A DNA stretch of 41,943 nucleotides. Origin: a virus. Positions 3,993 through 39,233 of the stretch are shown here, in pieces. The position numbers and the translations under genes were made by a program. Where the stretch lies: the IMG/VR virus record IMGVR_UViG_3300036985_008102, positions 1 to 41,943 of that record, one strand, 5' to 3'. Each line of letters begins with the position of its first letter. The stretch's first letter is position 1. The notes beneath the pieces were generated by a model that worked only from the letters and a program-made list of their open reading frames with translations, did no database searches and was not told the DNA's origin.

Positions 3993-5324
3993 TCAACGCC
4001 AAGCACCCGTCATCGGGCGTTCCTTGGTGACGAAGACCTGAAGTTCTTGGCTGGGAAACTCCAACTTACATCCCGGCGCAAGAATCCATCCACGCTTTCC
4101 GCGGACGCCAATAGGCGCCGGTGCCATTCCATCAGTCATAATCAAAAGACCATCCCATCGTCCACGATTCTTCGAATCGTTATAGACTCGAGTCGGCGCG
4201 TTGAAATCAGTGCCGCCACCGCGTGTTCGCATGGTCGCCTTCAATGGAACTGAACCCCGAGACCATCGAACGATGTCTGACTCTCGAGCGCTACAATCAA
4301 ACGGGATGAAGTCGATTTCAATTTTTCGAGTGAGCGCATTCAGCTCGCTGAAGAACAGTGCTAGCATCTCGTCACCAACGCTTCCTGACTCATCACGAGC
4401 AATGAGAAGCTTTGCCATGTAACCACGCTTCACTCCCGGGTGAATGTACGGGTAACGTCGATTGATACGCTTGATGGACGTCGTCCGACCACCGCGCAGC
4501 AACTTTCCGATGAACTGACGAAACACAGCACGCCAGTCGATAATATGCGAAACTGACTTGCGGATGCTTATCTGCAACTCTGCCGGGATATTCCCCCAAC
4601 CAGTTGACTCACTATCAGCATGCCGCACTGCCTTCTCGACGATCGCCTTGATTTTGCCTTCAACGTAAGCGCGTTGTTCCTCGGTGACTGAATCCCACGC
4701 GTCGTGGTCATCCATGGAATCGATATCACCAAAGACATCTCCCGGCTCGGCACCACCGTTCTTCTTCTGCTTCTCACAGAATTGTTGTAGGCGATCAAAG
4801 TACCACTCAGACGCTTGCATCTTCGGAAAGGATGCGATGAGATGAGCGACAGTGTTCCCAGACTTTTCATCATCGGAAGCCTTGCGCCCATCAGGAAGTT
4901 CAGGCATTACACCCGGGACCAATGCAAACTTCGGAAGCGTTCTCACATCTCGAGCATCGTTTTCGCCCCGGGGCCGAGCAGCACTTTCAAGAATGAGTGA
5001 GTTAATCGCAAGATCAGTCGCGACGTTCCACATTTTGTGCGGCTCACGACGTCGACCATAAAGGTGACCGAAGATGAGGTGATAGAATTCGTGTGTGATA
5101 ACACCTTGAATTTGGTTGTCGCTCAGCGTCGCCAAGAAATCAGGATTGTAGAACATACATACCTGATCACTCTTCGGGTCAAACGTGACCGCAGCTGTTG
5201 GAATCTGCTTTGTTGGCAGCTTCGTCAGTTGCCTCGACAGTTCAGCAAAGAACGCATGGTTCTGCAAGAACGGAATGAGGTACTTCTCAAAGTTGAAATC
5301 AGTCTCACACACGTTGAACATCAT
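3993..5324 (-). CDS. Metallopeptidase-like and VWA-like domain protein (DUF2201 type)
   Basis: 443 aa. The N-terminal half carries a zincin motif HEFYH at residues 78-82, in the setting of the DUF2201 putative metallopeptidase domain. The C-terminal part is a von Willebrand A-like domain with the MIDAS motif DESGS (311-315), GGGTDF (369-374) and MTDG (396-399). Such proteins pair with MoxR-type AAA ATPases in bacteria as chaperone or metal-insertion-like systems; a MoxR protein is encoded at 21344, but in another operon. It is the first gene of its unit, with ATG exactly 6 bp after a phage-type -10. A second ATG one codon on is 5 bp from GGAG. Three membrane protein genes follow. Confidence 0.9.
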   Translation of the reverse strand: MMFNVCETDFNFEKYLIPFLQNHAFFAELSRQLTKLPTKQIPTAAVTFDPKSDQVCMFYNPDFLATLSDNQIQGVITHEFYHLIFGHLYGRRREPHKMWNVATDLAINSLILESAARPRGENDARDVRTLPKFALVPGVMPELPDGRKASDDEKSGNTVAHLIASFPKMQASEWYFDRLQQFCEKQKKNGGAEPGDVFGDIDSMDDHDAWDSVTEEQRAYVEGKIKAIVEKAVRHADSESTGWGNIPAELQISIRKSVSHIIDWRAVFRQFIGKLLRGGRTTSIKRINRRYPYIHPGVKRGYMAKLLIARDESGSVGDEMLALFFSELNALTRKIEIDFIPFDCSARESDIVRWSRGSVPLKATMRTRGGGTDFNAPTRVYNDSKNRGRWDGLLIMTDGMAPAPIGVRGKRGWILAPGCKLEFPSQELQVFVTKERPMTGAWR

Positions 5325-5330
5325 GTCTCC

Positions 5331-5360
5331 ATCTTACCACGTTGGGTAACTCGTTTGCAC
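5331..5360 (-). promoter_or_regulatory. Phage-type promoter, leaderless arrangement
   Basis: GTGCAA, 17 bp, GTAAGAT, then 6 bp to the ATG at 5324. Drives the metallopeptidase/VWA operon. Confidence 0.8.
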
Positions 5361-5365
5361 CAGTC

Positions 5366-5635
5366 TCACGTCGGGTTGGTTTTGCTAGCTTCATGCGCTA
5401 GCAATTTCGAAAACGATTCCCAACACTTATCACACGCCCACGTTTCATCCGCGGCTAGCTTCATCTGCATGCCTGAAAGACAAGTTGGGCGTGCATTGTA
5501 AAAATGTTGCTTCGCCCCTGAATTCGGGCACGAATATCCGTTTCCATGACACGGATGAGGCTTATCATTCGACGCGTCGCGACCGCATCTGCATTTATCA
5601 CTTGACATCGTATTAACTTTTCCTAGTTGACTCAC
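5366..5635 (-). CDS. Small cysteine-rich, probably zinc-binding protein
   Basis: 89 aa from a GTG whose last two bases overlap the preceding TGA (GTGA, 4-bp overlap). An ATG at 5608 preceded by AGGAAA is the alternative start (80 aa). Cysteines occur as CRC, CHGNGYSC, one single Cys and a closing CDKC pair, a pattern suited to zinc ribbons or knuckles. No family named. Last gene of the RSH-like hydrolase operon. Confidence 0.72.
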   Translation of the reverse strand: MSQLGKVNTMSSDKCRCGRDASNDKPHPCHGNGYSCPNSGAKQHFYNARPTCLSGMQMKLAADETWACDKCWESFSKLLAHEASKTNPT

Positions 5636-5916
5636 ATGTTGTCGATGATGCGGCCGCGTTTGCCCGTGTGTTCAGACGTCTGTCTGACGTGGTCAGCGAG
5701 ACGCGTCAATAGGTCAAGCGTCGTCGGATTCAACGATGACCAGTCGGTCTCGCGAATCAGTTGCAAGACACGACCTTTGCATGCACCACACGTGCAATCA
5801 CTTACGTTCGCCGACGTTTGTTCAACGCGCTCATTATCAGGCATCTGCCAATTAAAATTGCTGCAATCGGTGAAGAGATGCGTTTTTCGCTGCGTTATAC
5901 GTTGTTTGAGCGTCAT
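5632..5916 (-). CDS. Small protein with CTCGAC motif, unknown function
   Basis: 94 aa. A CTCGAC motif in the middle could hold a metal ion, and the second half is predicted helical (a Leu/Thr-rich stretch, then RTSEHTGKRGR). Its ATG overlaps the stop of a 36-codon gene as ATGA, and AAAAAGG lies 7 bp upstream. Function unknown. Confidence 0.7.
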   Translation of the reverse strand: MTLKQRITQRKTHLFTDCSNFNWQMPDNERVEQTSANVSDCTCGACKGRVLQLIRETDWSSLNPTTLDLLTRLADHVRQTSEHTGKRGRIIDNM

Positions 5917-6023
5917 GGCATAACCTTTTTAAAGATATCATCCGGAAAACAAGGTGTCGGAGAACACCAAATCCAAGATATCTTCAATGCAGCATTCATC
6001 GTTGGCGTTAACGCCAACGTCAT
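5913..6023 (-). CDS. Hidden 36-aa gene between coupled neighbours
   Basis: The frame MTLALTPTMN...FKKVMP starts with an ATG overlapping the TGA of the gene at 6020 (ATGA), and its TGA overlaps the ATG of the gene at 5632 (ATGA). Perfect 4-bp overlaps at both ends fit the translational coupling used across this operon and are the main evidence. The first codons lie in a 20-bp perfect palindrome at 6000..6019. The peptide has Trp, Cys and Pro and no recognisable domain. It could be a chance frame. Confidence 0.45.
   Translation of the reverse strand: MTLALTPTMNAALKISWIWCSPTPCFPDDIFKKVMP
6000..6019. repeat. 20-bp perfect palindrome
   Basis: CGTTGGCGTTAACGCCAACG, identical on both strands, centred on GTTAAC. 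It lies within the first codons of the 36-codon gene, right after the stop of the 6020 gene. It could be an operator or an RNA hairpin affecting coupling. Confidence 0.55.
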
Positions 6024-6469
6024 GATTCTTCCTTGAAGGTAACGAGGCACCTGGCTTCAAATGGAACCTCCCGCGACAGGTCTTCACAACGCTTCATCCC
6101 AACGAGTGTAAGCGCGTTCTTGAATCGCTGCTTTTTCGAAGGATCAGCCATGATCGCTCTGTACCAAAACGGTTTATGCCGCGGCGCGCCCGAACATGGA
6201 CCACAAGATCCACAGAAAAGCCCGTTGTAAAAAAAGTGTTTTCCAGTGTAACCGTTGTGTGGGCCAAAATAAGTGGCGCCCAGCGCCTCTCTTCCGCGCC
6301 ATTCTTTAGCAAATTCTTCCACTTCTTTGAGACCGATGAAAGGTCCGATCGCCCTAAACAACAAGATGATTGCGTCTTGGTTGTTGATGAACCCAGCGCT
6401 AAAATCAGTCTTGGGACTGTGCTTCAAGGTGAGCAAATACTTGACGAGTGGATGATTTAGATCAATCAT
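6020..6469 (-). CDS. Unknown protein
   Basis: 149 aa from the ATG at 6469 (MIDLNHPLVKYLL), which overlaps the stop of the 6462 gene by 8 bp; a start further upstream would lie wholly inside that gene. The middle has a glycine/cysteine-rich stretch (YNGLFCGSCGPCSG) that might bind metal, followed by KPFWYRAIM. No family recognised. Confidence 0.72.
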   Translation of the reverse strand: MIDLNHPLVKYLLTLKHSPKTDFSAGFINNQDAIILLFRAIGPFIGLKEVEEFAKEWRGREALGATYFGPHNGYTGKHFFYNGLFCGSCGPCSGAPRHKPFWYRAIMADPSKKQRFKNALTLVGMKRCEDLSREVPFEARCLVTFKEES

Positions 6470-6737
6470 TGAACACCGTAATGTTGATGCTCGGGTCGTC
6501 TGCGCTTTGCCACTTCGTGGCAAGTAGTTCACCGTCCACGCTCTTGTCCTCAGCAAGAAATGTGAAAAGCATCTTGCGGTTGGTTTTGTGTGATTGTACA
6601 TAAAAACCTACATCGCAAGCGTCAGCATAAACACGTTTGGCAATTGGTCCGCCCAAAGTTGATTCTTCGGAGAAGCCAGTCTTCTTATTCCACGTGAACT
6701 GGGCGCCGTCGTGTACGGGAATATCAAGCGTTTTCAT
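6462..6737 (-). CDS. Small protein of unknown function
   Basis: 91 aa. Mixed alpha/beta with GGPIAKRVYADACDVGFYV and later a WQSADDPSINITVF end. AAGGAAA lies 6 bp before the ATG. Second gene of its operon, 19 bp after the RSH-like hydrolase. Function unknown. Confidence 0.75.
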   Translation of the reverse strand: MKTLDIPVHDGAQFTWNKKTGFSEESTLGGPIAKRVYADACDVGFYVQSHKTNRKMLFTFLAEDKSVDGELLATKWQSADDPSINITVFND

Positions 6738-6756
6738 TTGTGTTTTCCTTTAAAGG

Positions 6757-7383
6757 TCAGCGATTATCGGTAAGGAAACAGTTGTAAAAAGAAGATGCCG
6801 ATTGAAACAGTTGACGTTCAGAATCGATAAGACGTTTTGCAGCCCATGCATATGTGTTCGTCATGCACCCGGCGTCTTTGCCCATCATGTCGAACGTCGC
6901 AAACGCTGAAACAAGACCCATTACATGGCGACGTGTTTCTTCGCAGTAATTCAAACGCCATTGCGTTGTGAAACCAGACGTCACGCCATCACGAAGGTTG
7001 CAAATACGATCGCATACTTTCACCATTCGCGCTCGAACTGAAGCCTTGCGCAAATCTGTTAGGTACTCACTTTTGCTAGCTTTCGCTGGTTTACTCAAGG
7101 CAATGACATCTTCTACAACACTCATTGCAAAACCGAAGTTGAGCAAATCTTGCGCTGTATAACGACAAAGACTTTGAGGCTTGAAAGCGTCTTCGACAAA
7201 ATCATGAAGCCATGCGACCTGCAAAAACTCATCATCGATGAGGCCACTTGGAATGAGCGTTACAAGCTCAGCAACATCCCGTGGATGTTCCCACGCTCTA
7301 CGATATCGATCGTTTTCACTCGGTCTTGGCATCTGCATATGCGCTTTGACGAGTTCTTCTGCCATTCTCAACATTGTTGACAT
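6757..7383 (-). CDS. RSH/SpoT-like HD-domain hydrolase (small alarmone hydrolase type)
   Basis: 208 aa. The HD signature of RelA/SpoT hydrolases can be followed: EHP at 32-34, HD at 60-61 and ED at 64-65 (HDFVED, the characteristic HDxxED), and CDR at 124-126 in KVCDRICNLRD. There is no synthetase or regulatory domain, so the size matches stand-alone hydrolases such as MESH1 and other small alarmone hydrolases. Cleavage of (p)ppGpp or a related nucleotide is the expected activity. In a phage this could blunt the stringent response, but that is inference. A second such protein is at 24043. First gene of its unit, leaderless ATG 6 bp from the -10. Confidence 0.82.
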   Translation of the reverse strand: MSTMLRMAEELVKAHMQMPRPSENDRYRRAWEHPRDVAELVTLIPSGLIDDEFLQVAWLHDFVEDAFKPQSLCRYTAQDLLNFGFAMSVVEDVIALSKPAKASKSEYLTDLRKASVRARMVKVCDRICNLRDGVTSGFTTQWRLNYCEETRRHVMGLVSAFATFDMMGKDAGCMTNTYAWAAKRLIDSERQLFQSASSFYNCFLTDNR

Positions 7384-7389
7384 GATTCA

Positions 7390-7419
7390 ATTCTACCTTG
7401 GGTTAACTGTGACTTTCAC
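7390..7419 (-). promoter_or_regulatory. Phage-type promoter, leaderless arrangement
   Basis: GTGAAA, 17 bp, GTAGAAT, 6 bp, ATG at 7383. It lies directly after the possible 36-codon gene and a GTGAC/GTCAC inverted repeat. Confidence 0.78.
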
Positions 7420-7436
7420 TTTAACGTCACTCGTTA

Positions 7437-7547
7437 TCACTTTGCGCCGGGCGGTGGTTTCGCTCCACTCTTCCACGTTTCCGTACGTCTACGGAGCGTC
7501 ACCCCTTCGGGGCCAACCAAGCTTTGGTTCGTCACGATCGCCCTCAT
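7437..7547 (-). CDS. Possible 36-aa GC-rich gene or structured RNA
   Basis: Frame MRAIVTNQSLVGPEG...PPGAK in a GC-rich stretch about 25 bp downstream of the transcription start predicted from the promoter at 7580. GGAAAG directly precedes the ATG. The same stretch holds CCCC-TTC-GGGG (7502..7512) and a 6-bp stem at 7480..7495 with CGCTCC/GGAGCG around it, so the product might be an RNA instead. The promoter makes expression likely; the nature of the product is open. Confidence 0.4.
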   Translation of the reverse strand: MRAIVTNQSLVGPEGVTLRRRTETWKSGAKPPPGAK

Positions 7548-7579
7548 CTTTCCGGCTTCCGTTCCGTTCCAATAAGACT

Positions 7580-7609
7580 ACTATAAACCATTGGCCATGA
7601 CCTTTGCAC
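7580..7609 (-). promoter_or_regulatory. Phage-type promoter of the dyad class
   Basis: GTGCAA, 17 bp, TTATAGT. The dyad at 7620..7637 is exactly 10 bp upstream of the -35 motif, as in three other copies. Confidence 0.68.
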
Positions 7610-10087: not shown

Positions 10088-10567
10088 TTACATCAACGCA
10101 TGTGGAACGACATTGCTGAGACTTTCGACCATGTACTTTCCGCCGGCAACGATGAACGTATGAAACGGAACACTAACCTTATAGTCTTTGCCCATCGCCA
10201 CCATCCGCGTCACTCGCGTAATCCCAGCGTACATCATCAACGTTCCTGGCTTCATATTCGAGTTCTGAAATGTGGCGTACATAGGACTATACAACGGATA
10301 TACTGGTGTCCCTGTTGCTGTAGCAGCAACACACCATAGAACTCGTTCATCGAACCCGTTAGGGTGAGACACAGCACTTTGCGGAAGAAAAAATCCTTTC
10401 ATCACCCAAAACGTTCCCACCTCGAGAAATTCCGCATACTCGCGAGGTGGTTCAGGCCCGTTAAAATGAAACGGAATGTTTGCGATGACTTTTTTCGCAG
10501 GCGTTACGCCTTGATTCCAGGCGACGACACGTCTTCCCTTCGCTCGACTGACACTTGGCCTTGCCAT
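10088..10567 (-). CDS. Unknown beta-rich protein, first gene of its unit
   Basis: 159 aa. A basic N-terminus (RPSVSRAKGRRVV), then many Gly- and aromatic-rich strands (VGTFWVMKGFF, VLWCVAATATGTPVY, PGTLMMYAGI). The FL-VG-F and PGTL patterns resemble the PGDI(V/I) proteins at 38470 and 39958, a weak similarity judged by eye. Leaderless ATG 6 bp from the -10. Function unknown. Confidence 0.75.
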   Translation of the reverse strand: MARPSVSRAKGRRVVAWNQGVTPAKKVIANIPFHFNGPEPPREYAEFLEVGTFWVMKGFFLPQSAVSHPNGFDERVLWCVAATATGTPVYPLYSPMYATFQNSNMKPGTLMMYAGITRVTRMVAMGKDYKVSVPFHTFIVAGGKYMVESLSNVVPHALM

Positions 10568-10573
10568 ATTTCA

Positions 10574-10603
10574 ATCTTAACACAAGGCCACGACAGTTTT
10601 CAC
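10574..10603 (-). promoter_or_regulatory. Phage-type promoter, leaderless arrangement
   Basis: GTGAAA, 17 bp, TTAAGAT, 6 bp, ATG at 10567. Confidence 0.75.
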
Positions 10604-11193
10604 CATTGCGATGCAGAAGCCATCGTTGCCTTGATGAGCCTCAGATCACTGACGAGTGTACGGTGCGTGTACGTTGCACGATAAAAAGCGACCGCAAGTT
10701 CATCATCGATTTTATCCATGTACTTCGCGATGAAGTCGTGTCCCCAATCATTCGCTGCCTTCTTGGCGCGGAACGTTTCGAGGTCAGCGGGTAGCTCTTC
10801 GAAGGCGCGGAAGCTTCCCATGAAGTCCACGACGTCAGCCGCACGACCGACAGCGCCTAGAGCGACAGCCATCTGACCACACTTCAACATGCGACCGCGA
10901 AGGATGTACTTGTCGCCATCGCTATATTTCGTGGCATCGCCGGCGTCCCACTTGAGTTGGGGCAGCACGAGGAGCGCGTAGTTGCTTTTTTCTGCGTAGT
11001 TCCCGTTACGTTCAAGCTTCGATTCACTCGGATCGAAAACGACCTCGCAGTGATACCAGAACTTGTAATGTCCGTGAGGGCGTGCGTTTTCCCAGTGACC
11101 ATCACTGATTTGTCCGTTAATCTCAGCATGCCAAAGTGCAACTGCAGGAAGCGATGTCAGTGTCATCCGGGGCGAAGCGGCTTTTTTGTCCAT
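10600..11193 (-). CDS. Unknown soluble protein, single-gene unit
   Basis: 197 aa, mixed alpha/beta. The N-terminal half (VALWHAEINGQI, GHYKFWYHCEVVF, YALLVLPQL) looks like a beta domain and the C-terminal half is helical (MGSFRAFEELPADLETF, KYMDKIDDELAVAF). No motif recognised. It has its own dyad-class promoter and leaderless ATG, and its upstream 100 bp closely resemble those of the 17223 gene, suggesting shared regulation. Confidence 0.78.
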   Translation of the reverse strand: MDKKAASPRMTLTSLPAVALWHAEINGQISDGHWENARPHGHYKFWYHCEVVFDPSESKLERNGNYAEKSNYALLVLPQLKWDAGDATKYSDGDKYILRGRMLKCGQMAVALGAVGRAADVVDFMGSFRAFEELPADLETFRAKKAANDWGHDFIAKYMDKIDDELAVAFYRATYTHRTLVSDLRLIKATMASASQW

Positions 11194-11199
11194 GATCTA

Positions 11200-11229
11200 A
11201 TCTTACCCTGTTTACGGCTAACCTTGCAC
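11200..11229 (-). promoter_or_regulatory. Phage-type promoter of the dyad class, leaderless
   Basis: GTGCAA, 17 bp, GTAAGAT, 6 bp (TAGATC), ATG at 11193. Same -10-to-ATG sequence as at 17607. Confidence 0.82.
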
Positions 11230-15369: not shown

Positions 15370-15375
15370 AATTCA

Positions 15376-15405
15376 ATTCTACCCTAGATGCAACTCAACT
15401 TGCAT
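15376..15405 (-). promoter_or_regulatory. Phage-type promoter, leaderless arrangement
   Basis: ATGCAA, 17 bp, GTAGAAT, 6 bp, ATG at 15369. Confidence 0.72.
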
Positions 15406-17177: not shown

Positions 17178-17183
17178 GGTCTA

Positions 17184-17213
17184 ATTCTACCTCGATTCAT
17201 CCGTCAGATTCAC
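17184..17213 (-). promoter_or_regulatory. Phage-type promoter, leaderless arrangement
   Basis: GTGAAT, 17 bp, GTAGAAT, 6 bp, ATG at 17177. Confidence 0.72.
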
Positions 17214-17600: not shown

Positions 17601-17606
17601 GATCTA

Positions 17607-17636
17607 ATCTTACCCTATTGGCGGCCATCTTTGCAC
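17607..17636 (-). promoter_or_regulatory. Phage-type promoter of the dyad class, leaderless
   Basis: GTGCAA, 17 bp, GTAAGAT, 6 bp (TAGATC), ATG at 17600. Confidence 0.82.
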
Positions 17637-18762: not shown

Positions 18763-19001
18763 TTGGGCTCAACTTTCACATATGCCATGACGCCACCAAT
18801 GAATGCGCCTCGTGCAATATGCATGTATAACAGCCTCGTTTCTTTGACGAAGCTCGTCACCTTGCGACAGTCCAAGCGGTTCCCGGTGCTTTCATTCGAA
18901 AAGGCCATACACAACACTTGCAACCTGAATGGAACGCTCGAGCCTTCAAACGTATTGAGTGGCGCCATGCGGGACCCATCGAGTTTCGACCTTGTTTCCA
19001 T
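18759..19001 (-). CDS. Small protein of unknown function, first gene of its unit
   Basis: 80 aa. METRSKLDGSRMAPL start, strands near FRLQVLCMAF, and a C-terminal Gly/Ala-rich helix (LLYMHIARGAFIGGVMAYV) that could lie in a membrane. Leaderless ATG 6 bp from the -10. Leads a four-gene unit. Confidence 0.72.
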   Translation of the reverse strand: METRSKLDGSRMAPLNTFEGSSVPFRLQVLCMAFSNESTGNRLDCRKVTSFVKETRLLYMHIARGAFIGGVMAYVKVEPK

Positions 19002-19007
19002 GGTCTA

Positions 19008-19037
19008 ATAATAACCTTTCTCAACAGCGATTTGCAC
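19008..19037 (-). promoter_or_regulatory. Phage-type promoter, leaderless arrangement
   Basis: GTGCAA, 17 bp, TTATTAT, 6 bp (TAGACC), ATG at 19001. Confidence 0.75.
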
Positions 19038-20520: not shown

Positions 20521-20542
20521 ATCACTTCTTCGCGTCCTTGGC
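20521..20542 (-). repeat. Direct repeat of the moxR 3' end (copy A)
   Basis: 22 bp identical to 21343..21364. It covers the last codons (AKDAKK) and stop of the GIY-YIG gene. Confidence 0.85.
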
Positions 20543-21301
20543 AACATCTACGCTCATGAATCTTTGCGTGTGACGTCGTACAACATTCTTGACGAGAGCG
20601 TATGATACACATAGTTCTATAGCTGTTTGCTTTCTCGTTTTACCTTCCTTGATGACCATATCAATCATGCGTTGATTTCGTTTAAGAGCGTTTTTCTGGA
20701 GCGTTTTTCCTGAACTAACGTATTGATGTTCTGAACCAACAGGAAGATCTAGATCATGAAGTCGTTTCCAACGTAACAAAATCTTCACAACGTTGTGCTC
20801 ATGTACGTTAAATTCAATCGCAAGTTCTTTGCGCGATTTCCCTGCTTTAAATCCATCAACAATAGGACGATGTTTCTCGTCTGTTTTTCGGGTGCGAGTC
20901 ACAAGTGGCTTACCCAATTTTGACGCTGAAATCTTGACTCGAGCATCTAACGACATGATCCATCCGGATGAATCCTTTTGGTCACCGCCATCAGTCATGT
21001 TATAACCAAAATCCTTGTCAAACGTAGAGAGTTCTGCGACCCAGCGTCGTTCAGCTAAATTTGCATATTCAAGTGATGATATTTCATCTTGAAGAACGCT
21101 GACACAAAAATTCTGAACCCCATGCTTTCGTATCGCGCTGTAAAAACGCGTATCAGCGTTTCGTTTTATCGCTAGCCACACGTGTTTTTTCCAACGTTGT
21201 TTCGCGGTCCTACGCGTCTGACCTACGTATTTCTTATTGTTGACTAAATTGGTGACACAATAAACACACCAATTCCTGACCTTCTTAGTATCGGTATCCA
21301 T
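20522..21301 (-). CDS. GIY-YIG homing endonuclease
   Basis: 259 aa. The GIY-YIG nuclease domain spans residues 12-105: VYCVTN at 13-18, YVGQTRR at 25-31 (the YVG of the motif), conserved Arg and Lys in KQRWKKH, and FYSAIRKHG. The C-terminal half has two helix-turn-helix repeats (SRKELAIEFNVHEHNVVKIL and TRKQTAIELCVSYALVKNVV) for DNA recognition, as in SegA/NUMOD-type free-standing enzymes. It sits between moxR and the ImmA-like gene, and its last codons repeat those of moxR, marking it as an insertion that restored the host gene's 3' end. AGG lies 8 bp before the ATG. Confidence 0.9.
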   Translation of the reverse strand: MDTDTKKVRNWCVYCVTNLVNNKKYVGQTRRTAKQRWKKHVWLAIKRNADTRFYSAIRKHGVQNFCVSVLQDEISSLEYANLAERRWVAELSTFDKDFGYNMTDGGDQKDSSGWIMSLDARVKISASKLGKPLVTRTRKTDEKHRPIVDGFKAGKSRKELAIEFNVHEHNVVKILLRWKRLHDLDLPVGSEHQYVSSGKTLQKNALKRNQRMIDMVIKEGKTRKQTAIELCVSYALVKNVVRRHTQRFMSVDVAKDAKK

Positions 21302-21342: not shown

Positions 21343-21364
21343 ATCACTTCTTCGCGTCCTTGGC
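21343..21364 (-). repeat. Direct repeat of the moxR 3' end (copy B)
   Basis: 22 bp identical to 20521..20542, the native end of the moxR gene. The two copies are 822 bp apart and frame the GIY-YIG gene. Confidence 0.85.
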
Positions 21365-22513
21365 GTCCTTTTCGGCGAAGATGCCAGGAATATTTGGTAC
21401 CACGCCAATCCCAGCATCACCCATGGGGACCTGGAATACATCGAGGACATGCTTAGCCATGTACTTGTGAACACTCTTCGCGAGCTCGATCTTGTCTACT
21501 CCGGACGAAGTGATCTTCGTCCAAAGCGAAATCCGAAGTTCACCAGGAAGATCCTTCATGAACTCTTCGAGATTCTTTCCTTGTTTGTCAGTGACCTTGT
21601 TCAGCGTCGTGATGTATTCAGACACCTTGTCGATTGCAAGGTTGAGCGTTTCATTTCGACGCCGAGACATCACCTTATTCTTGACCTTCTTGTAGTTCTC
21701 GATGATGTCCTTGCCGGTGAAGCGATCGTCTTGCGACTTCGCGAAGGCAACGAATGCGATAGACGCTTCAGTACCGATGAATCCCAGACTCATCGCGTAG
21801 AACCGCGGGTCCTCTGTCGACTCATCGAGCTTGGACGCCACAAGTGCATCACTGAGCCTCTCCCAGGAACGTCGGGAAACGTGAACCTTGCCGGGCTCTG
21901 CGTTGACCGGCGGGTCGAGCCACTTCTTGTTCTCGGCGATGAAATCCGTGATGACAGAAATGCAGTTCGAACGATTCTGCTTCGACTCATTCTCAGTGCG
22001 ACCCCAATCAAGCCAGTCCTGCTCGTCCGGCTTCAGGTCGATAACCCAGAAACGATCGAGAAGTGCAGGGTCGACCTCATTGACGTTGTATGCAGACGAT
22101 GCGTTGATCGCCGAGAGTACCCGCGTTTGCGGATGAAGCTTCCAACCATTGAGCTCGCGATCGAGTACAATCTGAAACGCTGCTTGCATAACCTCAGGCG
22201 TTGCTCGGTTGAGCTCGTCGAGAAACAGATAACACGGGTTATCACATGCCCGCTTGTACCAGTCAGGCGGATTGAACCGCGTAACTTCACCATTCGTGCT
22301 CGGAAGCCCGATGATGTCACCCTCACTGACCTGCGAGAGTCGGCGATCGATGAGCTCGAAATCCTTGATGCCTTCATTCGTAGCGATCATGCTACGAAGC
22401 AGTCGCCCGAGCTGCGACTTGCCGATGCCGTGGTCACCACGCATCAGGATACTAGTCGAGGCCGGAAGCAACGGGGCCACGGTTAGGAAGGTCTTCACTG
22501 TCATCGTCGTCAT
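21344..22513 (-). CDS. MoxR-type AAA ATPase
   Basis: 389 aa. Walker A GDHGIGKS at 26-33, Walker B CYLFLDE at 94-100, sensor-1 region SAINASS near 135-140, and DPALLDRF at 148-155 with the arginine finger. This is the MoxR subgroup of AAA+ proteins, which act with VWA-domain partners as chaperones or in metal-center assembly. The likely partner is the metallopeptidase/VWA protein at 3993, in another unit. First gene of its transcript, here with a 45-nt leader and AGGAG before the ATG. The long opposite-strand frame over it is a shadow. Confidence 0.9.
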   Translation of the reverse strand: MTTMTVKTFLTVAPLLPASTSILMRGDHGIGKSQLGRLLRSMIATNEGIKDFELIDRRLSQVSEGDIIGLPSTNGEVTRFNPPDWYKRACDNPCYLFLDELNRATPEVMQAAFQIVLDRELNGWKLHPQTRVLSAINASSAYNVNEVDPALLDRFWVIDLKPDEQDWLDWGRTENESKQNRSNCISVITDFIAENKKWLDPPVNAEPGKVHVSRRSWERLSDALVASKLDESTEDPRFYAMSLGFIGTEASIAFVAFAKSQDDRFTGKDIIENYKKVKNKVMSRRRNETLNLAIDKVSEYITTLNKVTDKQGKNLEEFMKDLPGELRISLWTKITSSGVDKIELAKSVHKYMAKHVLDVFQVPMGDAGIGVVPNIPGIFAEKDAKDAKK

Positions 22514-22557
22514 TTTTATCGATTCTCCTGTGTGTTTTTCTTTGCAATCACTTGTCT

Positions 22558-22587
22558 AGTATACCATCGTCTTGTGGTGACATACAC
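22558..22587 (-). promoter_or_regulatory. Phage-type promoter with normal leader
   Basis: GTGTAT, 17 bp, GTATACT, then 44 bp to the moxR ATG. One of the few with a leader and Shine-Dalgarno. Confidence 0.65.
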
Positions 22588-22624: not shown

Positions 22625-22918
22625 TCAGATTCCTACTGATGTTTCAGACGCCAACCGAGCAGCTTCTGCGTGAGCATCCTGTACCGCTGTAACCAAGAGC
22701 TTGTACGACTTACGCCAGTCTCGCGAGTTCGCTTGTGCAATGAATTTTCCGTCAACAGTGCACTCGGTGAGGTAGCTATCAGATGGCATCGACAACTGCT
22801 TGCAAGTCAACGGCGACAACCGCTGTCCAGTAACGACTACTTTCGCTGAGGTACCGTAAAGCTTCACCGCCATGTTTGCGACTAGCTGCTTTGAATTCGG
22901 CTTGAATGAGTAGAACAT
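22625..22918 (-). CDS. Small protein of unknown function, single-gene unit
   Basis: 97 aa. Strands (VKLYGTSAKVVVTGQRLSPL, YLTECTVDGKFIAQA) followed by a C-terminal helix (YKLLVTAVQDAHAEAARLAS). No family recognised. Leaderless ATG. Confidence 0.75.
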   Translation of the reverse strand: MFYSFKPNSKQLVANMAVKLYGTSAKVVVTGQRLSPLTCKQLSMPSDSYLTECTVDGKFIAQANSRDWRKSYKLLVTAVQDAHAEAARLASETSVGI

Positions 22919-22924
22919 GTTCTT

Positions 22925-22954
22925 ATTTTACCCTGTTTTCACGGTGACTTGCAC
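22925..22954 (-). promoter_or_regulatory. Phage-type promoter, leaderless arrangement
   Basis: GTGCAA, 17 bp, GTAAAAT, 6 bp, ATG at 22918. Confidence 0.8.
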
Positions 22955-25710: not shown

Positions 25711-25716
25711 AGATAG

Positions 25717-25746
25717 ATCTTACCCTGTTTGGATCGACCTTTGCAC
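25717..25746 (-). promoter_or_regulatory. Phage-type promoter of the dyad class, leaderless
   Basis: GTGCAA, 17 bp, GTAAGAT, 6 bp, ATG at 25710. Confidence 0.8.
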
Positions 25747-27473: not shown

Positions 27474-27797
27474 TTAGCTGTTCTTATATGTATCAAACGT
27501 AGCATGATCACGTCGAGCCATCTCAACTACGTGAAGTAAATCAGCCATACCACCCTGAAACGTCGGAGATTTGGCAACCTCATCGAGTCGTTTCTCGTCT
27601 AGATCAACTTCGTATACGTGAGCAACTGCTGACACGAATTTTCGCATGACGCGAATCACGTGATTTCGTGCAGATGAATGATTCATCGGAAAACCGAGTT
27701 CTGTCATCGTATCTGCAATCTCACGATAGTTAACACCTTCGTCTAATGTTACGGTCGCATACCCTCGCTCGACCGTTGTTCCCATCTTAAGTGCCAT
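27474..27797 (-). CDS. Small helix-turn-helix protein near the sigma factor
   Basis: 107 aa. NYREIADTMTELGFPMNHSS followed by ARNHVIRVMRKF (residues 23-54) fits a helix-turn-helix of the kind seen in sigma region 4 and related regulators, where REIA opens the first helix and SARNHV the recognition helix. The C-terminal half is helical and charged. AAGGAAA lies just before the ATG. It is separated from the sigma gene only by two membrane-protein genes. It could supply the DNA-binding function that the sigma factor appears to lack. Confidence 0.7.
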   Translation of the reverse strand: MALKMGTTVERGYATVTLDEGVNYREIADTMTELGFPMNHSSARNHVIRVMRKFVSAVAHVYEVDLDEKRLDEVAKSPTFQGGMADLLHVVEMARRDHATFDTYKNS

Positions 27798-28245: not shown

Positions 28246-28382
28246 CACTTCTTTAAAGCTCGTTGTGCGATTGCATGGCCAAGTTGAGCAGTAAAGACAA
28301 CAAGACCAAAACACGAAACTAACACTACGACAACTTGGCTGAACGTCGCTAGTTGTCCTTTAAAAAAGGATCGTTTCTTCAC
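28245..28382 (-). CDS. Hidden 45-aa membrane protein, coupled to the sigma factor gene
   Basis: MKKRSFFKGQLATFSQ, then a hydrophobic helix (about residues 17-33) and a basic end (IAQRALKK). The GTG start overlaps the sigma TGA by 4 bp (GTGA) and the stop shares a base with the next ATG (TGATG). Overlaps at both ends and a clean transmembrane profile make it likely to be real. It could be a holin-like or membrane-tethering peptide. Function unknown. Confidence 0.65.
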   Translation of the reverse strand: MKKRSFFKGQLATFSQVVVVLVSCFGLVVFTAQLGHAIAQRALKK

Positions 28383-29257
28383 GTCATCCCTTTACCATGC
28401 ATTACAGATTTAAGCTCAATTTCCGTAATTGGAAAAGCGCTTGTATCTGTTGTGAGATCTTCAACGAGTCCGAAACGAAGTCGAAGGATAGCAGCTTCCT
28501 TTGATGACAACGAATCAAGGACGCGTTTCGTCACAGACAAAAGTTGTTTCTCGGCAACATTTTCAAACGGATTCACTCCCGGGCGTTCATCTTCGATTTT
28601 ATCCTCGAGTGAATTACCTTCTGAACCCCCGCTACGATCGAATGAAGGTGTATTAAGTGAAACAATACCACGACCTGAATGTATCGTAGCTCGAGCTACA
28701 GTCTCAGACGCGCCAACAATGTCCATTAATTCTTCCGAAGAAGGTTCTTCGTTGTTAGACGTTCGATATACTTCTGCGGCGTGCATCATCTTTTTCTGCA
28801 ATGAAACCGCATGCGCAGGCAACCTAATCAAACGCCTGCGCTTCAATAGATGTTGCCCAATAGATTGACGAATCCACCACGTTGCATACGTTGAAAACTT
28901 AAATCCTTTCTCCCACTCAAATCGATCAATGGACTTCATCAAACCAATGTTGCCCTCTTGAATGAGATCTTCAAGTGGAATGTTATGTCCTTTATATTGC
29001 TTCGCGATCGAAACAACTAGACGTAGATTGCATTCAATTAGCTTAGCCCTGATACGTTTCGCCTCTGCGGTTAGATCATACGTATCCTCAGTGAGTTCAG
29101 TACGACCTGCCCGATAGTTTTGAAACAGCTCAACTAGTTCAAGGTGTTTAAGTTGGGAAAACCTATGCAAGGCATTCAAATACGAAGCCATGATGTTTCG
29201 TTCAATTGATTCATGAACACGAACCCGTGGTGGCGTGGTGACGAGTTTTGCCTTCAT
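28379..29257 (-). CDS. RNA polymerase sigma-70 family factor with divergent or incomplete region 4
   Basis: 292 aa. Region 1.2-like N-terminus (ASYLNALHRFSQLKHLELVE, 24-43). Region 2 is complete: LIECNLRLVVSIAKQY (73-88), DLIQEGNIGLMKSIDRFEW (97-115), and the 2.3/2.4 -10 reader FSTYATWWIRQSIGQHL (121-137). Region 3 spans about 143-225. Region 4 begins as LSSKEAAILRLRFGLVED (250-267), then lacks the expected region 4.2 helix-turn-helix (the RERIRQIE signature) and ends after 25 unrelated residues. It should read a TATAAT-like -10 but not a standard -35. It probably directs phage transcription from the motif promoters here. TGATG coupling to 29257. Confidence 0.92.
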   Translation of the reverse strand: MKAKLVTTPPRVRVHESIERNIMASYLNALHRFSQLKHLELVELFQNYRAGRTELTEDTYDLTAEAKRIRAKLIECNLRLVVSIAKQYKGHNIPLEDLIQEGNIGLMKSIDRFEWEKGFKFSTYATWWIRQSIGQHLLKRRRLIRLPAHAVSLQKKMMHAAEVYRTSNNEEPSSEELMDIVGASETVARATIHSGRGIVSLNTPSFDRSGGSEGNSLEDKIEDERPGVNPFENVAEKQLLSVTKRVLDSLSSKEAAILRLRFGLVEDLTTDTSAFPITEIELKSVMHGKGMT

Positions 29258-29979: not shown

Positions 29980-30047
29980 GTTAACACCTTAACTTAATCG
30001 TGTTTACGTATACACTATTTAATTTCTCACATGAAAACGTAAGAATT

Positions 30048-34507: not shown

Positions 34508-35431
34508 TTAGGAGTGTTTTTCAGATTGAAGTTGTTTCAAACCAATGTTAACGTAATCTTCACGCGTTAAATCAATTGCTAACGTACCAGAAGCCATGTC
34601 AACTTCGAGGCAATCTCGTAGATTCGCAAGCCAATTTCCAGGCTTACGCCCAGATGCAACGAGAATATCGCCCATCGTTCCCTTGGGAAGTTTTGGCGCA
34701 TTCATCTCTGACATCACTACTTTCACTCGTTGCTCGAGATCGTTTGCTCGACGTTCAGCTTTTTGTCGCTTCAAAGGATTCTTTGTTGTCAAATCAGATC
34801 GCGACAATGACATAAGTTTCTCAAAGAAACGTTCATCACCGCATTCTGTGAGCAAACGCCTGACAGCTGAGTCAGTCCATTCGTTTGGTTTATATCCTGC
34901 AGGTCGCAAGTGTTCACGCACAAGGTGGCGCACCGTCTGGAATAGTGCATCGTCGTCATTGAACAACCCAGTTCGCAACTGCATTTGATCAACCATTCGC
35001 GCACCAACGATGTCATGATTGTGAAAGGTCACCCGCTTGCCAATGACACGACGAGTTCGCGATTTCCCAATATCATGTAGGAGAGCACCCCAACGTACGT
35101 CAACCTCAGCTGGAACGCCGGCAACAACGATCAGTGTGTGTTCCCAAACGTCCTTGTGAAGACCGTCGCCATCATAGAGGGCTCGCATCGATGTGACTTC
35201 CGGAAACAACGCATACAAAACATTGAATCGCAAGAGCAACCTAAGGCCGTCTTGAACCCGCGGGGCGCACAACGTTTCATCCAAAAGCCTTCGAACTTGC
35301 TTTGGATCGCGCCGCCAGAGCTGCTCATAGTCGCCGACCCTAAATGGCACATGAATCGCCATACACGTCGGAATGCCTACGCTATCATACGCCGCCTGAC
35401 GACACAACTCGATCGCTTCCATCGGATCCAT
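34508..35431 (-). CDS. HD-domain protein related to the C-terminal half of CCA-adding enzymes
   Basis: 307 aa. The first part (PRVQDGLRLLLRFNVLYALFPEV) matches the RNA-binding segment of bacterial CCA-adding enzymes/poly(A) polymerases, and LHKDVWEHTL, GALLHDIGK (HD at 119-120) and HNHDIVGA the HD phosphohydrolase domain. The nucleotidyltransferase head domain (GGxVRD, DxD) is absent, so it cannot add CCA itself. It may remove 2',3'-cyclic phosphate or 3' phosphate from tRNA ends, or assist host enzymes; most tRNAs here lack an encoded CCA. First gene of its unit with leaderless ATG. Confidence 0.8.
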   Translation of the reverse strand: MDPMEAIELCRQAAYDSVGIPTCMAIHVPFRVGDYEQLWRRDPKQVRRLLDETLCAPRVQDGLRLLLRFNVLYALFPEVTSMRALYDGDGLHKDVWEHTLIVVAGVPAEVDVRWGALLHDIGKSRTRRVIGKRVTFHNHDIVGARMVDQMQLRTGLFNDDDALFQTVRHLVREHLRPAGYKPNEWTDSAVRRLLTECGDERFFEKLMSLSRSDLTTKNPLKRQKAERRANDLEQRVKVVMSEMNAPKLPKGTMGDILVASGRKPGNWLANLRDCLEVDMASGTLAIDLTREDYVNIGLKQLQSEKHS

Positions 35432-35437
35432 ATCACC

Positions 35438-35467
35438 ATCATACCATGGGTAGGTTCATGGTTGCAC
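35438..35467 (-). promoter_or_regulatory. Phage-type promoter, leaderless arrangement
   Basis: GTGCAA, 17 bp, GTATGAT, 6 bp, ATG at 35431. Confidence 0.8.
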
Positions 35468-35509: not shown

Positions 35510-36064
35510 TCAATAACACCAACGAAGTCGTGCGAGATTAACGCGGTTCCAAGCAGCAACTTGAGCGACTGTTTCTACGTCCGGACAAGCGTAATTGCTT
35601 TTATCGTAATATCGATTCATCAATGTTCCATAAACGTGTTGTGCACCAAATGCATGCCCAAGTTCATGCAACAAAATACCACGGACGTCATATTCATAAC
35701 GACCGCGCATCATTGAAATTTCACGCCCACCAAGTGCTGAAACCCATGCTAACGCATTTGGAGAATCCGGATTCGGTCCTTCAACTTCGCTGACGACAAT
35801 TGAACACCCATCAACGAATCCGTCATTTGTACCCAAAATAGCAACGACACGACGCCAGTCGCCAAGAGCAACATTCCATTCGTCGACAGCTGACTTAGCT
35901 GGTTCCCAATGTTCGCCGGGTAAATCAACACAAACTAATATCGTAGATGTCACCGGATCATTGTTTATGAATTCAGGTCGTGACCAACTAGAGGTACACC
36001 CAGATGCCATCGTGATTAAAAACAAAATCAACAAGAGACAACGAATGACGGCTTTCACCATCAT
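35510..36064 (-). CDS. Lipoprotein zinc metalloprotease of the metzincin type
   Basis: 184 aa. A basic start and hydrophobic core lead to lipobox MASGC (residues 19-23), so Cys23 should be lipidated and the protein placed on the cell surface or in the periplasm. HELGHAFGAQH (133-143) is the full metzincin zinc motif HExxHxxGxxH, and GTLM (146-149) supplies the Met-turn, as in matrixin-like enzymes. Substrate unknown; a host envelope protein or competing phage is possible. GAAGG precedes the tandem ATGs. Last gene of the unit from 38363. Confidence 0.85.
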   Translation of the reverse strand: MMVKAVIRCLLLILFLITMASGCTSSWSRPEFINNDPVTSTILVCVDLPGEHWEPAKSAVDEWNVALGDWRRVVAILGTNDGFVDGCSIVVSEVEGPNPDSPNALAWVSALGGREISMMRGRYEYDVRGILLHELGHAFGAQHVYGTLMNRYYDKSNYACPDVETVAQVAAWNRVNLARLRWCY

Positions 36065-36091
36065 AACTAATCGCCTTCAGAAGCGTTTTTT

Positions 36092-36520
36092 TCAAAGTTT
36101 CCAGAAACGTTTTGTTGGTGTCGGATCGATGTTTGTATAGCCGGGATGATCTAATAAAACGTTAACGACAGCATTTTTCACAATCCGATACCACTCGTTC
36201 TCATGTGAAACATCAAGGCCAACATTGACAATATTCGAATGTTTGCCGCCATTTATTGTTGCATCATCAATTGCGAACAACAAATCAGCAAACTCGACAG
36301 GGGAACCCGGTTTAAGATCTTTCAGTTTATCGTCAATGAAATCACGGAGTGCATCATCATCTACGACAACGCCAGATTCATTTGATGTAAAGGTCAAATG
36401 CATATTGTTCCTTGACAAGAATGGACTCGGTTCTCGCTCATGAGCAAACGCTGGTGATTCACTAATAACTGACAGGCGTATACGTTTCTTGAGTCTACCG
36501 ACAGTGATCCTCACGATCAT
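36092..36520 (-). CDS. Protein with VRITVGRLKKRIR N-terminal tag
   Basis: 142 aa. The N-terminal helix tag (see 34096) is followed by a mixed domain: TFTSNESGVVVDDDALRDFI, DLLFAIDDATI and a C-terminal segment NAVVNVLLDHPGYTNID. No family recognised. An internal GTG at codon 3 could also be the start. Confidence 0.73.
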   Translation of the reverse strand: MIVRITVGRLKKRIRLSVISESPAFAHEREPSPFLSRNNMHLTFTSNESGVVVDDDALRDFIDDKLKDLKPGSPVEFADLLFAIDDATINGGKHSNIVNVGLDVSHENEWYRIVKNAVVNVLLDHPGYTNIDPTPTKRFWKL

Positions 36521-36554
36521 TAAGTATGTTACTCACAATTGATACGATGTGTTG

Positions 36555-37559
36555 TCAGGATTTTTCTGATGCTTTTATGTACGAATCCAAATGAGCATAT
36601 GCTGAAATGAATTCTTGACGTAGCGTATGAAACTTTTCATCTTGAACTTCTGTAAACCGAGACCAGTTCATGAATGTCTCAGCGAACCCGCGTTTATCGA
36701 TCGATTCTCGAACGTCGATGAGAGCGTCTTCTATTGATTTCACTGGTTCAACGTTAGGCGATATCATAGGTTTCGTCAAAGAAGGTTCAAGTGGTCGCAT
36801 TCCAGAGTGGCACTGACAATTTCTACGACATCGACATCGTCGATAATCAAAATAACCCGCGGCTTGACGTTCGTTGGCACGTTTCTGTGATTCTTTCGCC
36901 GCCGCGGCCATTGATGCTTTACCTTCAGGCGTTGCAAGCCTTTCAGCTAAGACTTTGGCTGCAGCTTCAATGTTAGCTGCTCTATCATTTTCTACGATTT
37001 TAGCAGTTGCTGTGGGTGTGGGCTCACTAGCGACTGATTTGTTTTTCGGAGGTAACTGAAGACCAAGTTGTCGATTAAGAAAACGAATATTTTCATCAAG
37101 CGTCCAAACATTAGTATTCGCAGCACAAATAAGCCAATGTGGACCTTCCGGGATTAGCATTGCATATGCATCACCCGATGGCAACGTTGTCAACAGCGCG
37201 TTCGGATGCACTTTGTAAAAATCGTGAATTGCTTTTCCAGTATCACGTAAAAATTGTTGATATTTTGAGTTAACGACCGGAGCGGGTTGATTTTCAACCT
37301 TAGCTACTTTGCGTAGGAATACTTCGTGTAGGAAAGCAAGTGCATGTGCCATTGGCACTTCCCATAACGTAATTTCATTGACGCTAGCCGAAACAGCATT
37401 CCATACTTCTGTTTCATCAAGGTAACTTTCCCTATCGGTAACAGTCGTATGCTTACGCGCATATGCTCTTATGTATTCCAACATGCTAGCTCGCCAAGTT
37501 TCATCGATTTGTTCTTTCGTAACAAGTTTATCTGATGATTCAATTGATGCTTTCAACAT
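36555..37559 (-). CDS. Large unknown protein with Ala-rich coiled region and Arg/Cys cluster
   Basis: 334 aa. N-terminal helical domain (QIDETWRASMLEYIRAYARK), a central alpha/beta part (SGDAYAMLIPEGPHWLICA), an Ala-rich helix (IEAAAKVLAERLATPEGKA, about 197-225) and a Cys/Arg cluster RRCRCRRNCQCHSG that may bind metal or RNA. The C-terminal part is helical. No family recognised. Confidence 0.75.
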   Translation of the reverse strand: MLKASIESSDKLVTKEQIDETWRASMLEYIRAYARKHTTVTDRESYLDETEVWNAVSASVNEITLWEVPMAHALAFLHEVFLRKVAKVENQPAPVVNSKYQQFLRDTGKAIHDFYKVHPNALLTTLPSGDAYAMLIPEGPHWLICAANTNVWTLDENIRFLNRQLGLQLPPKNKSVASEPTPTATAKIVENDRAANIEAAAKVLAERLATPEGKASMAAAAKESQKRANERQAAGYFDYRRCRCRRNCQCHSGMRPLEPSLTKPMISPNVEPVKSIEDALIDVRESIDKRGFAETFMNWSRFTEVQDEKFHTLRQEFISAYAHLDSYIKASEKS

Positions 37560-37560
37560 C

Positions 37561-38037
37561 TTAAAATTCTTTCTTGTTTTCTTCGGGCGTTATAGTCGAT
37601 GATTTTTCAGCGTTAACATTTGCAATCTTATCGAACCTAGCAGCCAATGCCGTGACAAACGAAGTAACCTTGTTCAGATGATAACGCTCTTCTCGCGTCA
37701 ATTCCTTACGTGTTCGATCAATGAGCAACGCATGGTTCACTTCATCGATGAATACAATAAGTCCAAGCCTGACATCACTCAACGCCTGTCTGATTGCGTT
37801 CGGATCATTGATGGCATTGTTACTATTGATGGGTATCACAGGCGTTGCGCCATGATCGAACTCAACCGTATAACGTTCGTCTGCGGCATCCCAATCGCGA
37901 CCGTGAACGAAAGGTCGTTCAACACGAAGTGGTGACTGACGTGGAATGAGTTGTCTAACGTTGCTCGATAGGCGCGCTTGTTCCTTGTCGCGTTGTGCCA
38001 ACATCGCTAGCGGTGAATCACGGCGTTCGTCTTTCAT
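37561..38037 (-). CDS. Unknown protein
   Basis: 158 aa from the ATG at 38037; a start upstream would overlap the 38046 gene. After a charged N-terminus come a strand region (RYTVEFDHGATPVIPI) and helical segments (VRLGLIVFIDEVNHALL, NKVTSFVTALAARFDKI). One bp before the 36555 gene. Function unknown. Confidence 0.72.
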   Translation of the reverse strand: MKDERRDSPLAMLAQRDKEQARLSSNVRQLIPRQSPLRVERPFVHGRDWDAADERYTVEFDHGATPVIPINSNNAINDPNAIRQALSDVRLGLIVFIDEVNHALLIDRTRKELTREERYHLNKVTSFVTALAARFDKIANVNAEKSSTITPEENKKEF

Positions 38038-38045
38038 GTTTTCTT

Positions 38046-38363
38046 TCAAAATAGTCGCGTACGTGGTGACCACAGGATGAGCGTCTTCTCTTCGATATCA
38101 TCGTCATTACGTAATGACAGATTTTGAAGCGCGGCTTTCGCAAGCACTAGACCAAAAACTTGTCGTTTTTCGTTCTTGATAGACAAGAACTTCGTTCTGA
38201 CTATCGTTCCCGGAACGAACCAACCAACTTGATCAGGCATTGCATTAAGTTCCATAACCCAATCAACTAAATTTAATCGATAATACCAGCATGGACCGGT
38301 TAAACGATCTACCATACTTCGAAATGCAGGCAATTCAAAATCTTCATAGTTAACTGGTAACAT
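38046..38363 (-). CDS. Member of a PGx(I/V)...LWS small protein family
   Basis: 105 aa. VPGTIVRTKFL, VFGLVLAKA and EEKTLILWSP follow the same order as in the 38470 and 39958 proteins (PGDIV/IIYWS, IGIV/IGLV, F/YILWS), so the three are probably paralogues with a small barrel-like fold. First gene of its unit, but with a 36-nt leader rather than leaderless. Function unknown. Confidence 0.72.
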   Translation of the reverse strand: MLPVNYEDFELPAFRSMVDRLTGPCWYYRLNLVDWVMELNAMPDQVGWFVPGTIVRTKFLSIKNEKRQVFGLVLAKAALQNLSLRNDDDIEEKTLILWSPRTRLF

Positions 38364-38399
38364 TTTAATGTTTTCTAATTGCTATCCTTCTCTATAACC

Positions 38400-38429
38400 A
38401 TCATACCACATTAGTCACTGCGATTGCAC
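38400..38429 (-). promoter_or_regulatory. Phage-type promoter with leader
   Basis: GTGCAA, 17 bp, GTATGAT, 36 bp to the ATG at 38363. Confidence 0.75.
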
Positions 38430-38469
38430 TTAAACGCAGGAACGCGAGATAACTCAAGCCAAGATGAAT

Positions 38470-38802
38470 TCATCTTCGACCATGATGTGTCGATGACCAC
38501 ACTATGTAACACACTGGGCTCGGTTCGCCTAAAACAGCAACAACAAGCCCAATCGCATAAGCCTTATGCCTATCAACCCAATGAATCCCTTGAAGATCGA
38601 TTTGATCTGGCACATATGCTACGCCCTGATCATGACCATATTGTGTCGAACGCGACCACGTCACGATATCACCCGGGACCACGTCCTTAACTGACACTTT
38701 TGCGCCAATTCGCCCGCCATGATCATCAACGAATTCTTCGTTTTTTCTGGTGCGGAGAACGAACGTAATTCCCACCAATAGATGATGTCGTTTTAAGACC
38801 AC
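38470..38802 (-). CDS. PG-D(I/V)..WS family small protein, GTG start
   Basis: 110 aa. VVPGDIVTWSRS, YAIGLVVAVL and VCYIVWSS give the family pattern (see 38046). An in-frame TGA lies upstream, so the GTG at 38802 with GAG 6 bp before it is the likely start. Second gene of the unit from 39198. Function unknown. Confidence 0.7.
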   Translation of the reverse strand: MVLKRHHLLVGITFVLRTRKNEEFVDDHGGRIGAKVSVKDVVPGDIVTWSRSTQYGHDQGVAYVPDQIDLQGIHWVDRHKAYAIGLVVAVLGEPSPVCYIVWSSTHHGRR

Positions 38803-38850
38803 ATGTTGCTCACAAAAGAATTGTTGTCACATCATTTGAACAAAGCGTTA

Positions 38851-39198
38851 TTAGCGTTTTAGGCCCATTCGCTGCGCAATCTTACCCCAGGGCGGACCTG
38901 CCAATGAAACCGGAACTGACCTTCGCACCACCTGAAATCCCTTGAATTCAGGTGGTATCGTAATCGTTTCATCACAAAACGCATAAAGGCGCCAGGCGTG
39001 TTCTTCACCACGAGGAGTGTCAGCATTGTCAGTGCTAAATGCCTTCGGACCAAAACCATAACCTGAACCAACGTTGTAACCAAGTTCCTTTTGAAGCGCA
39101 TCACGAGCCTCGTTCAAACCTTTTGGTCGACCAGGAATTGCATTCGGGTCAACGACAACGACAGCATTCGGATCCGGCTTCTTCTTTCGTCTCATCAT
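38851..39198 (-). CDS. Unknown small protein, first gene of its unit
   Basis: 115 aa. A basic start with tandem ATG (MMRRKKKPDPNA), then GLNEARDALQKELGYN, then strands (AWRLYAFCDETITI, FQVVRRSVPVSL). No family recognised. Leaderless ATG. Confidence 0.73.
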   Translation of the reverse strand: MMRRKKKPDPNAVVVVDPNAIPGRPKGLNEARDALQKELGYNVGSGYGFGPKAFSTDNADTPRGEEHAWRLYAFCDETITIPPEFKGFQVVRRSVPVSLAGPPWGKIAQRMGLKR

Positions 39199-39204
39199 CT
39201 GATA

Positions 39205-39233
39205 ATCCTACAATATGTTAAATGCATTTACAC
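39205..39233 (-). promoter_or_regulatory. Phage-type promoter, leaderless arrangement
   Basis: GTGTAA, 16 bp, GTAGGAT, 6 bp, ATG at 39198. Confidence 0.68.

Follow-up and report, generated by a model that had tools for sequence, protein, structure and literature searches.

Promoters predicted to start transcription on the start codon mark a putative leaderless gene class shared by a clade of uncultured jumbo phages

The cI messenger RNA (mRNA) of phage lambda is leaderless, with its AUG at the 5' end and no Shine-Dalgarno (SD) site. In many bacteria, a TANNNT box about 12 bp ahead of the start marks leaderless genes, which account for more than 20% of genes in Actinobacteria and Deinococcus-Thermus (PMC3160421). 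Several leaderless, SigA-like promoters have been predicted in cluster O mycobacteriophages (PMC4351075), and most middle and late transcripts of the Thermus phage phiYS40 are leaderless (PMC3594737, citing earlier work). Here we analyzed a 41,943-base virus fragment from IMG/VR (IMGVR_UViG_3300036985_008102, hereafter the window), in which an earlier sequence-only reading had listed 12 genes whose ATG lies exactly 6 bp past a -10 element. We propose that sigma-70-type promoters very probably place the transcription start (+1) on the A of these ATGs, which would yield leaderless mRNAs, and that these make up one class conserved across a clade of uncultured jumbo phages.

All 12 coordinates carry an ATG on the minus strand, each 6 bp past a TAnnnT hexamer. 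The window's minus strand holds 11 instances of GGTAnnAT-Nd-ATG at d = 6 and 0-2 at any other d (d 0-29), and its plus strand holds none at d = 6. A promoter matrix trained on the window (region -38 to -7, ATG excluded) gave 18 window matches, 12 with an ATG at exactly +6 (binomial P ~1e-16 at an ATG density of 0.0205 per position), a circular count as the matrix had seen the sites. In a non-circular test, a matrix averaged from four other contigs ranked 11 of the 12 listed sites within its top 14 window matches. The positions claimed by the sequence-only reading were thus all verified, 11 of them by the cross-trained matrix; the weak one, 39198, did not reach the top 25.

The sites share the consensus cGGTG(c/a)AA-N18-(GT)GGTAggAT-N5-C-ATG, which would represent a sigma-70-type promoter whose -10 is extended and whose -35, GTG(C/A)AA, is divergent. 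The extended form TG(n)TAnnnT appears as (G)TGGTAggAT in contigs G002, G003 and G004, and the window mostly has GGTA, often without the TG. The promoters of the listed ATGs lie on the minus strand and, unless stated otherwise, combine an 18-bp spacer with recovery by both matrices. GTGCAA is paired with TAAGAT upstream of the ATGs at 5324 (promoter 5325..5360; 443 aa, DUF2201 metallopeptidase/VWA-like), 11193 (11194..11229; 197 aa; rank 1 in the cross-trained matrix), 17600 (17601..17636; 125 aa) and 25710 (25711..25746; 150 aa), with TATTAT at 19001 (19002..19037; 80 aa), with TAAAAT at 22918 (22919..22954; 97 aa) and with TATGAT at 35431 (35432..35467; 307 aa, HD domain). GTGAAA is followed by TAGAAT at 7383 (7384..7419; 208 aa, HD-domain-like, below the Pfam cut-off) and by TAAGAT at 10567 (10568..10603; 159 aa, overlapping the 3' end of the upstream gene). 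The -10 TAGAAT also serves 15369 (ATGCAA, 15370..15405; 54 aa) and 17177 (GTGAAT, 17178..17213; 107 aa). The weak candidate at 39198 (39199..39233; 115 aa) has a -35-like GTGTAA 17 bp from TAGGAT and shows only TAnnnT at 6 bp. A thirteenth candidate absent from the original list, ATG 29979 (GTGTAT, 18 bp, TAAGGT, 29980..30015, minus strand; 66 aa, upstream of a sigma factor gene), was found by the window-trained matrix and had a low cross-trained score. A repeat, GAAAGTG(T/C)TTTCA(A/T)(C/T)AA.GAAAAC, adjoins the -35 on its upstream side at 11193, 17600, 25710 and ~7640-7610 (minus strand) and is a possible activator or UP-type site.

We then counted TAnnnT-Nd-ATG wherever the ATG opened a frame of 50 codons or more, using nearly complete sequences of related contigs, which are environmental fragments whose lineages may partly overlap and whose genes were called by a simple script. 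The 6-bp spike seen in the window was common to about 15 of them, with 113 sites against a background of ~20 in G007, 50 against 3 in G003, 63 against 10 in G004, 52 against 14 in G002 and 69 against 18 in G021. The excess over the mean of other spacings was 2-19 fold in all contigs but G005 and G011. The spike was specific to ATG (pooled, 637 at d = 6 against a background of ~150) and absent for GTG, TTG, CTG, ATT, ATC, ACG and AAG in the pooled related contigs. By the same count, no spike appeared in T4 (0.4), SPO1 (1.0) or two uncultured huge phages (0.8 and 1.0), and the distant relatives L026, L027, L028 and L030 were at or near background (0.7-1.8). Two segments of phiYS40 reached 1.5 and 3.3 times background, and Myrna had just 2 sites at d = 6, too few for comparison. 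A chance lining-up of ATGs with -10-like words is ruled out by the spacing controls, the start-codon controls and the cross-trained matrix. Separately, a contig from a Lachnospiraceae metagenome-assembled genome (L162) had two peaks far over background, with 16 TAnnnT-ATG pairs at spacing 6 and another 15 at spacing 11; this double excess is perhaps a repeat.

RNA polymerase favors a pyrimidine at -1 and a purine at +1. The base at -1 was C in 87% of 387 matrix-supported sites, compared with 45% at other ATG starts, an enrichment that this preference would be expected to produce with +1 on the A of the ATG. At all 13 window sites, and at 320 of 387 sites overall, the ATG was the first possible in-frame start, in many cases because a TAG or TAA within the -10 forms an in-frame stop at -12; all 13 window sites have an in-frame stop 6-27 nt upstream. 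A strong SD was present at 13% of leaderless-type sites and at 29% of other starts. In an alignment-based comparison of strong leaderless genes with homologs on other contigs, TAnnnT-N6-ATG was kept at the homolog start in 174 of 381 pairs (46%), against 99 of 1426 (7%) for genes without the architecture, the pairs not being independent. The architecture was retained in homologs at 30-55% protein identity for the DUF2201 gene (5324), the HD protein (35431) and the 97-aa protein (22918). Gene 5324 has homologs with the same promoter at the same start in several other contigs, and leaderless-type homologs were found for 11193 (G003, G010, G018), 22918 (G005, G011, G015, G017) and 35431 (G002, G004, G013). 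Homolog N-termini are conserved, supporting real gene starts.

The same promoter also occurs with a leader. An SD 4-mer was present in 57 of the 72 cases in which the promoter was followed by a called gene 12-90 nt downstream, a fraction somewhat inflated as the gene caller rewards SD sites. In the window, the promoter at 22552..22587 (minus strand) would give a ~38-nt 5' untranslated region with AGGAG before the ATG at 22513 of a MoxR-like ATPase gene. Together, these leadered genes and the ATPase gene indicate that SD sites turn up where the start codon lies away from +1. At 38394..38429 (minus strand), +1 would fall at ~38393, where there is no ATG, and the first ATG follows AAGGA about 30 nt downstream. 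A third promoter (GTGCAA, 18 bp, TATAGT; 7574..7609, minus strand) has no ATG at +1 and heads an apparently non-coding unit. This unit (7440-7573, minus strand) contains a G+C-rich stretch that folds slightly better than shuffled sequences (z -1.8) and had no Rfam match; it is a possible non-coding RNA. The sequence-only reading had called leaderless starts systematic, which holds for most promoters, but the leadered ATPase gene and the apparently non-coding unit use the same promoter. Its statement that downstream genes rely on SD sites or overlaps was partly borne out, but roughly one internal gene in two lacks an obvious SD 4-mer.

As judged from sequence, leaderless mRNA is strongly supported by the fixed distance, the restriction to ATG, C at -1 with A at +1, the homologs and the SD sites of leadered genes. 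Several observations weigh against this interpretation. The classical sigma-70 -35 (TTGACA at 17 bp) is replaced by GTG(C/A)AA at 18 bp; a -35 is not strictly required by an extended -10 promoter. The 6-bp excess was weak in G005 (1.3x), G011 (1.8x) and G013 (2.1x). An additional excess at 7 bp was present in G018, G015 and G017, where transcription of some genes may start 1 nt upstream of the A. Finally, about half of the homologs of leaderless genes lack the leaderless architecture.

The sites do not spread over the whole genome. Of the 45 matrix-supported sites in G007, 26 fall within one 20-kb bin, and at ~66.5-72 kb there is one promoter per 300-500 bp; G004 and G018 are similar. On the plus strand, the block with the baseplate and late-sigma-like genes has almost no matrix-supported sites, and none in G007. 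A whole-genome default was therefore rejected: the class fills one block in the long relatives. Because the sites crowd into a single block of small genes, they suggest one temporal class. The block resembles the early regions of large phages, in which numerous small genes for host takeover each have a promoter of their own, and the leaderless class is probably expressed early. In the mechanism that we propose, host RNA polymerase would probably read these promoters early and start at the A of the ATG, each leaderless mRNA would serve one small gene on its own or the gene at the head of a short operon, and the ribosome would initiate on the 5'-terminal AUG without an SD site.

The alternative that survives best, to which we give an even chance, is that the phages mirror a host rich in leaderless genes, such as a member of the Actinobacteria or Deinococcus-Thermus, and use host-type promoters with no phage-specific program. 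TANNNT about 12 bp upstream marks leaderless genes in those groups (PMC3160421), and the -10 with its 18-bp spacer would suit a primary sigma factor. Against it, searches of 84,980 bacterial and archaeal genomes and of 50,697 phage records turned up no close relative, and 25 kb of the window used as query had no close DNA match among the phage records. Searches with the sigma factor and DNA ligase, and a comparison of transfer-messenger RNA (tmRNA) in samples of two phyla, gave no host assignment, and no WhiB gene was found. Moreover, promoters of the same type with a leader have SD sites, indicating that both modes are in use. Host mirroring is compatible with leaderless transcription from the ATG and affects only its novelty.

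A second, less probable alternative is that a truncated phage sigma factor reads the promoters, perhaps with a 107-aa neighbor acting at the -35, and that the leaderless class is a middle class. The window encodes a 292-aa sigma-70-like factor (28379..29257, minus strand; phrog_351, E=1.6e-52), whose gene was found in 18 of 21 records tested. The protein stops right after region 4.1 (..RFGLVED..YPITEEE..GKGLT) in all 17 contigs aligned and seems, from these alignments, to have no -35-reading region 4.2. This factor is a candidate reader of the leaderless-class promoters or of later ones. The 107-aa protein (27474..27797, minus strand), always near the truncated sigma gene and present in all 18 contigs compared, has an invariant NHSSARN..V.R.M.KF helix and a helix-turn-helix-like model (mean pLDDT 80); no family was assigned to it. 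Further in favor of a phage sigma factor, the -35 differs from TTGACA, and the distant relatives L026 and L027, which have no sigma match, also have no spike. However, the extended -10 could be enough for a host sigma factor, and the neighbor has no significant similarity to sigma region 4. A split two-protein sigma factor with the neighbor as region 4.2 was plausible by eye and was rejected, as nothing emerged from Pfam, PDB sequence and Foldseek searches or from aligning its profile with one of 26 bacterial sigma region 4 sequences.

It is rather improbable that transcripts start 1-3 nt before the ATG and carry ultra-short leaders. Starts naturally scatter by 1-2 nt, and both the 7-bp excess in some contigs and one window promoter with its ATG at 9 bp (9263) would fit such leaders. 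In contrast, C at -1 with A at +1 matches the start-site preference of the polymerase, and 6 bp is a normal discriminator length.

A dedicated program, in which a phage-modified polymerase, a private AUG-start promoter and a phage initiator-type tRNA bias ribosomes to the 5'-AUG, also seems doubtful to us. If it existed, early phage messages would be translated while host SD-dependent messages are not. The earlier suggestion of translation by 70S ribosomes during stress or host shut-off gained no support, as no phage gene for IF2, IF3 or ribosomal protein S21 was found in the eight contigs searched. CAU tRNAs with initiator hallmarks occur in G003, G004, G006 and G018 and, less clearly, in G010 and G021; the window fragment has none. 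These tRNAs are up to 88% identical to E. coli metZ and have a GAGCAG D arm and a TTCAAAT T loop, with a GGG/CCC anticodon stem and a 1:72 mismatch in some. Extra initiator tRNA has been reported to favor leaderless mRNA (PMC9031893), and we regard the initiator-type tRNAs of the relatives as a suggestive lead toward leaderless helpers.

A translation-level or start-associated element within a longer mRNA, with no promoter, is very improbable: start-associated repeats occur in some actinobacteriophages, but here two boxes with the character of an extended -10 promoter keep a fixed 18-bp spacing, leadered genes and the apparently non-coding unit are preceded by the same element, in-frame stops lie inside the motif, and SD signals are reduced at the sites.

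From its sequence, we identify the window as a piece of an uncultured jumbo phage and the related contigs as a deep-branching clade of such phages. The window has 20 predicted tRNA genes and encodes a GIY-YIG endonuclease in addition to the sigma factor and the MoxR-like ATPase, whose relatives sit on contigs of up to 369 kb. Some related contigs have ~50-59 predicted tRNAs, and tmRNA, GroEL, a baseplate wedge protein of T4 type and a weak gp55-like match also occur among the related contigs. The phage-encoded tmRNA tags of G007, G018 and G021 are ANDNGFADDVRLAA, ANDNGALPLRLAA and ANDNGVAPLALAA, respectively. A tRNA with anticodon TTA, reading UAA, is predicted at 751-821 (minus strand) of the window and also in G004 and G021, and CTA-anticodon tRNAs are predicted in G007 and G021; both are possible stop-codon suppressors. 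The final 21 bp of the GIY-YIG endonuclease gene (20522-21301, minus strand) are exactly duplicated at 21344-21364, the end of the adjoining ATPase gene, as if the endonuclease gene had copied the end of its target.

These findings suggest that a whole class of viral genes can follow, as a conserved rule, the fusion of transcription start and start codon; the clade in question turns up repeatedly in environmental metagenomes. Since the same promoter sometimes comes with a leader and an SD site, it offers matched pairs for testing what leaderless initiation buys in infection. The promoter also allows start codons and operons to be called exactly for jumbo phage genes that otherwise have no annotation.

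Compared with known systems, the predicted mRNAs share with lambda cI a 5'-AUG and the lack of an SD site; cI is a single transcript, whereas here there is a class. They resemble the TA-led genes of bacteria, including the -10-motif genes of Deinococcus-Thermus, in having TANNNT about 12 bp upstream and no SD (PMC3160421, PMC12340547), and our sites likewise show TANNNT at a fixed distance, no upstream in-frame start and reduced SD signals. Unlike TA-led cellular genes, they have a conserved -35 and an exact 6-bp spacing and form one phage gene class. The sequence-only reading knew of no precedent for a set of phage operons that is leaderless by default, but phiYS40 (PMC3594737) and the cluster O mycobacteriophages (PMC4351075) precede it. 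Cluster O phages belong to another lineage and have few promoters per genome, with no block of closely spaced promoters as here. In phiYS40, as predicted here, a whole phage gene class is leaderless, with a 1.5-3.3-fold excess at 6 bp. Leaderless transcription in phiYS40 concerns middle and late genes in a thermophilic host, in which IF2 goes up and IF3 goes down (PMC3594737). The class described here differs in forming a dense, probably early block of small genes, in having a promoter with a conserved -35 of its own and in an excess that reaches 19 fold. Overall, as far as the literature that we found shows, a conserved, dense leaderless class with its own promoter consensus in a jumbo-phage clade is a new form of a type already known.

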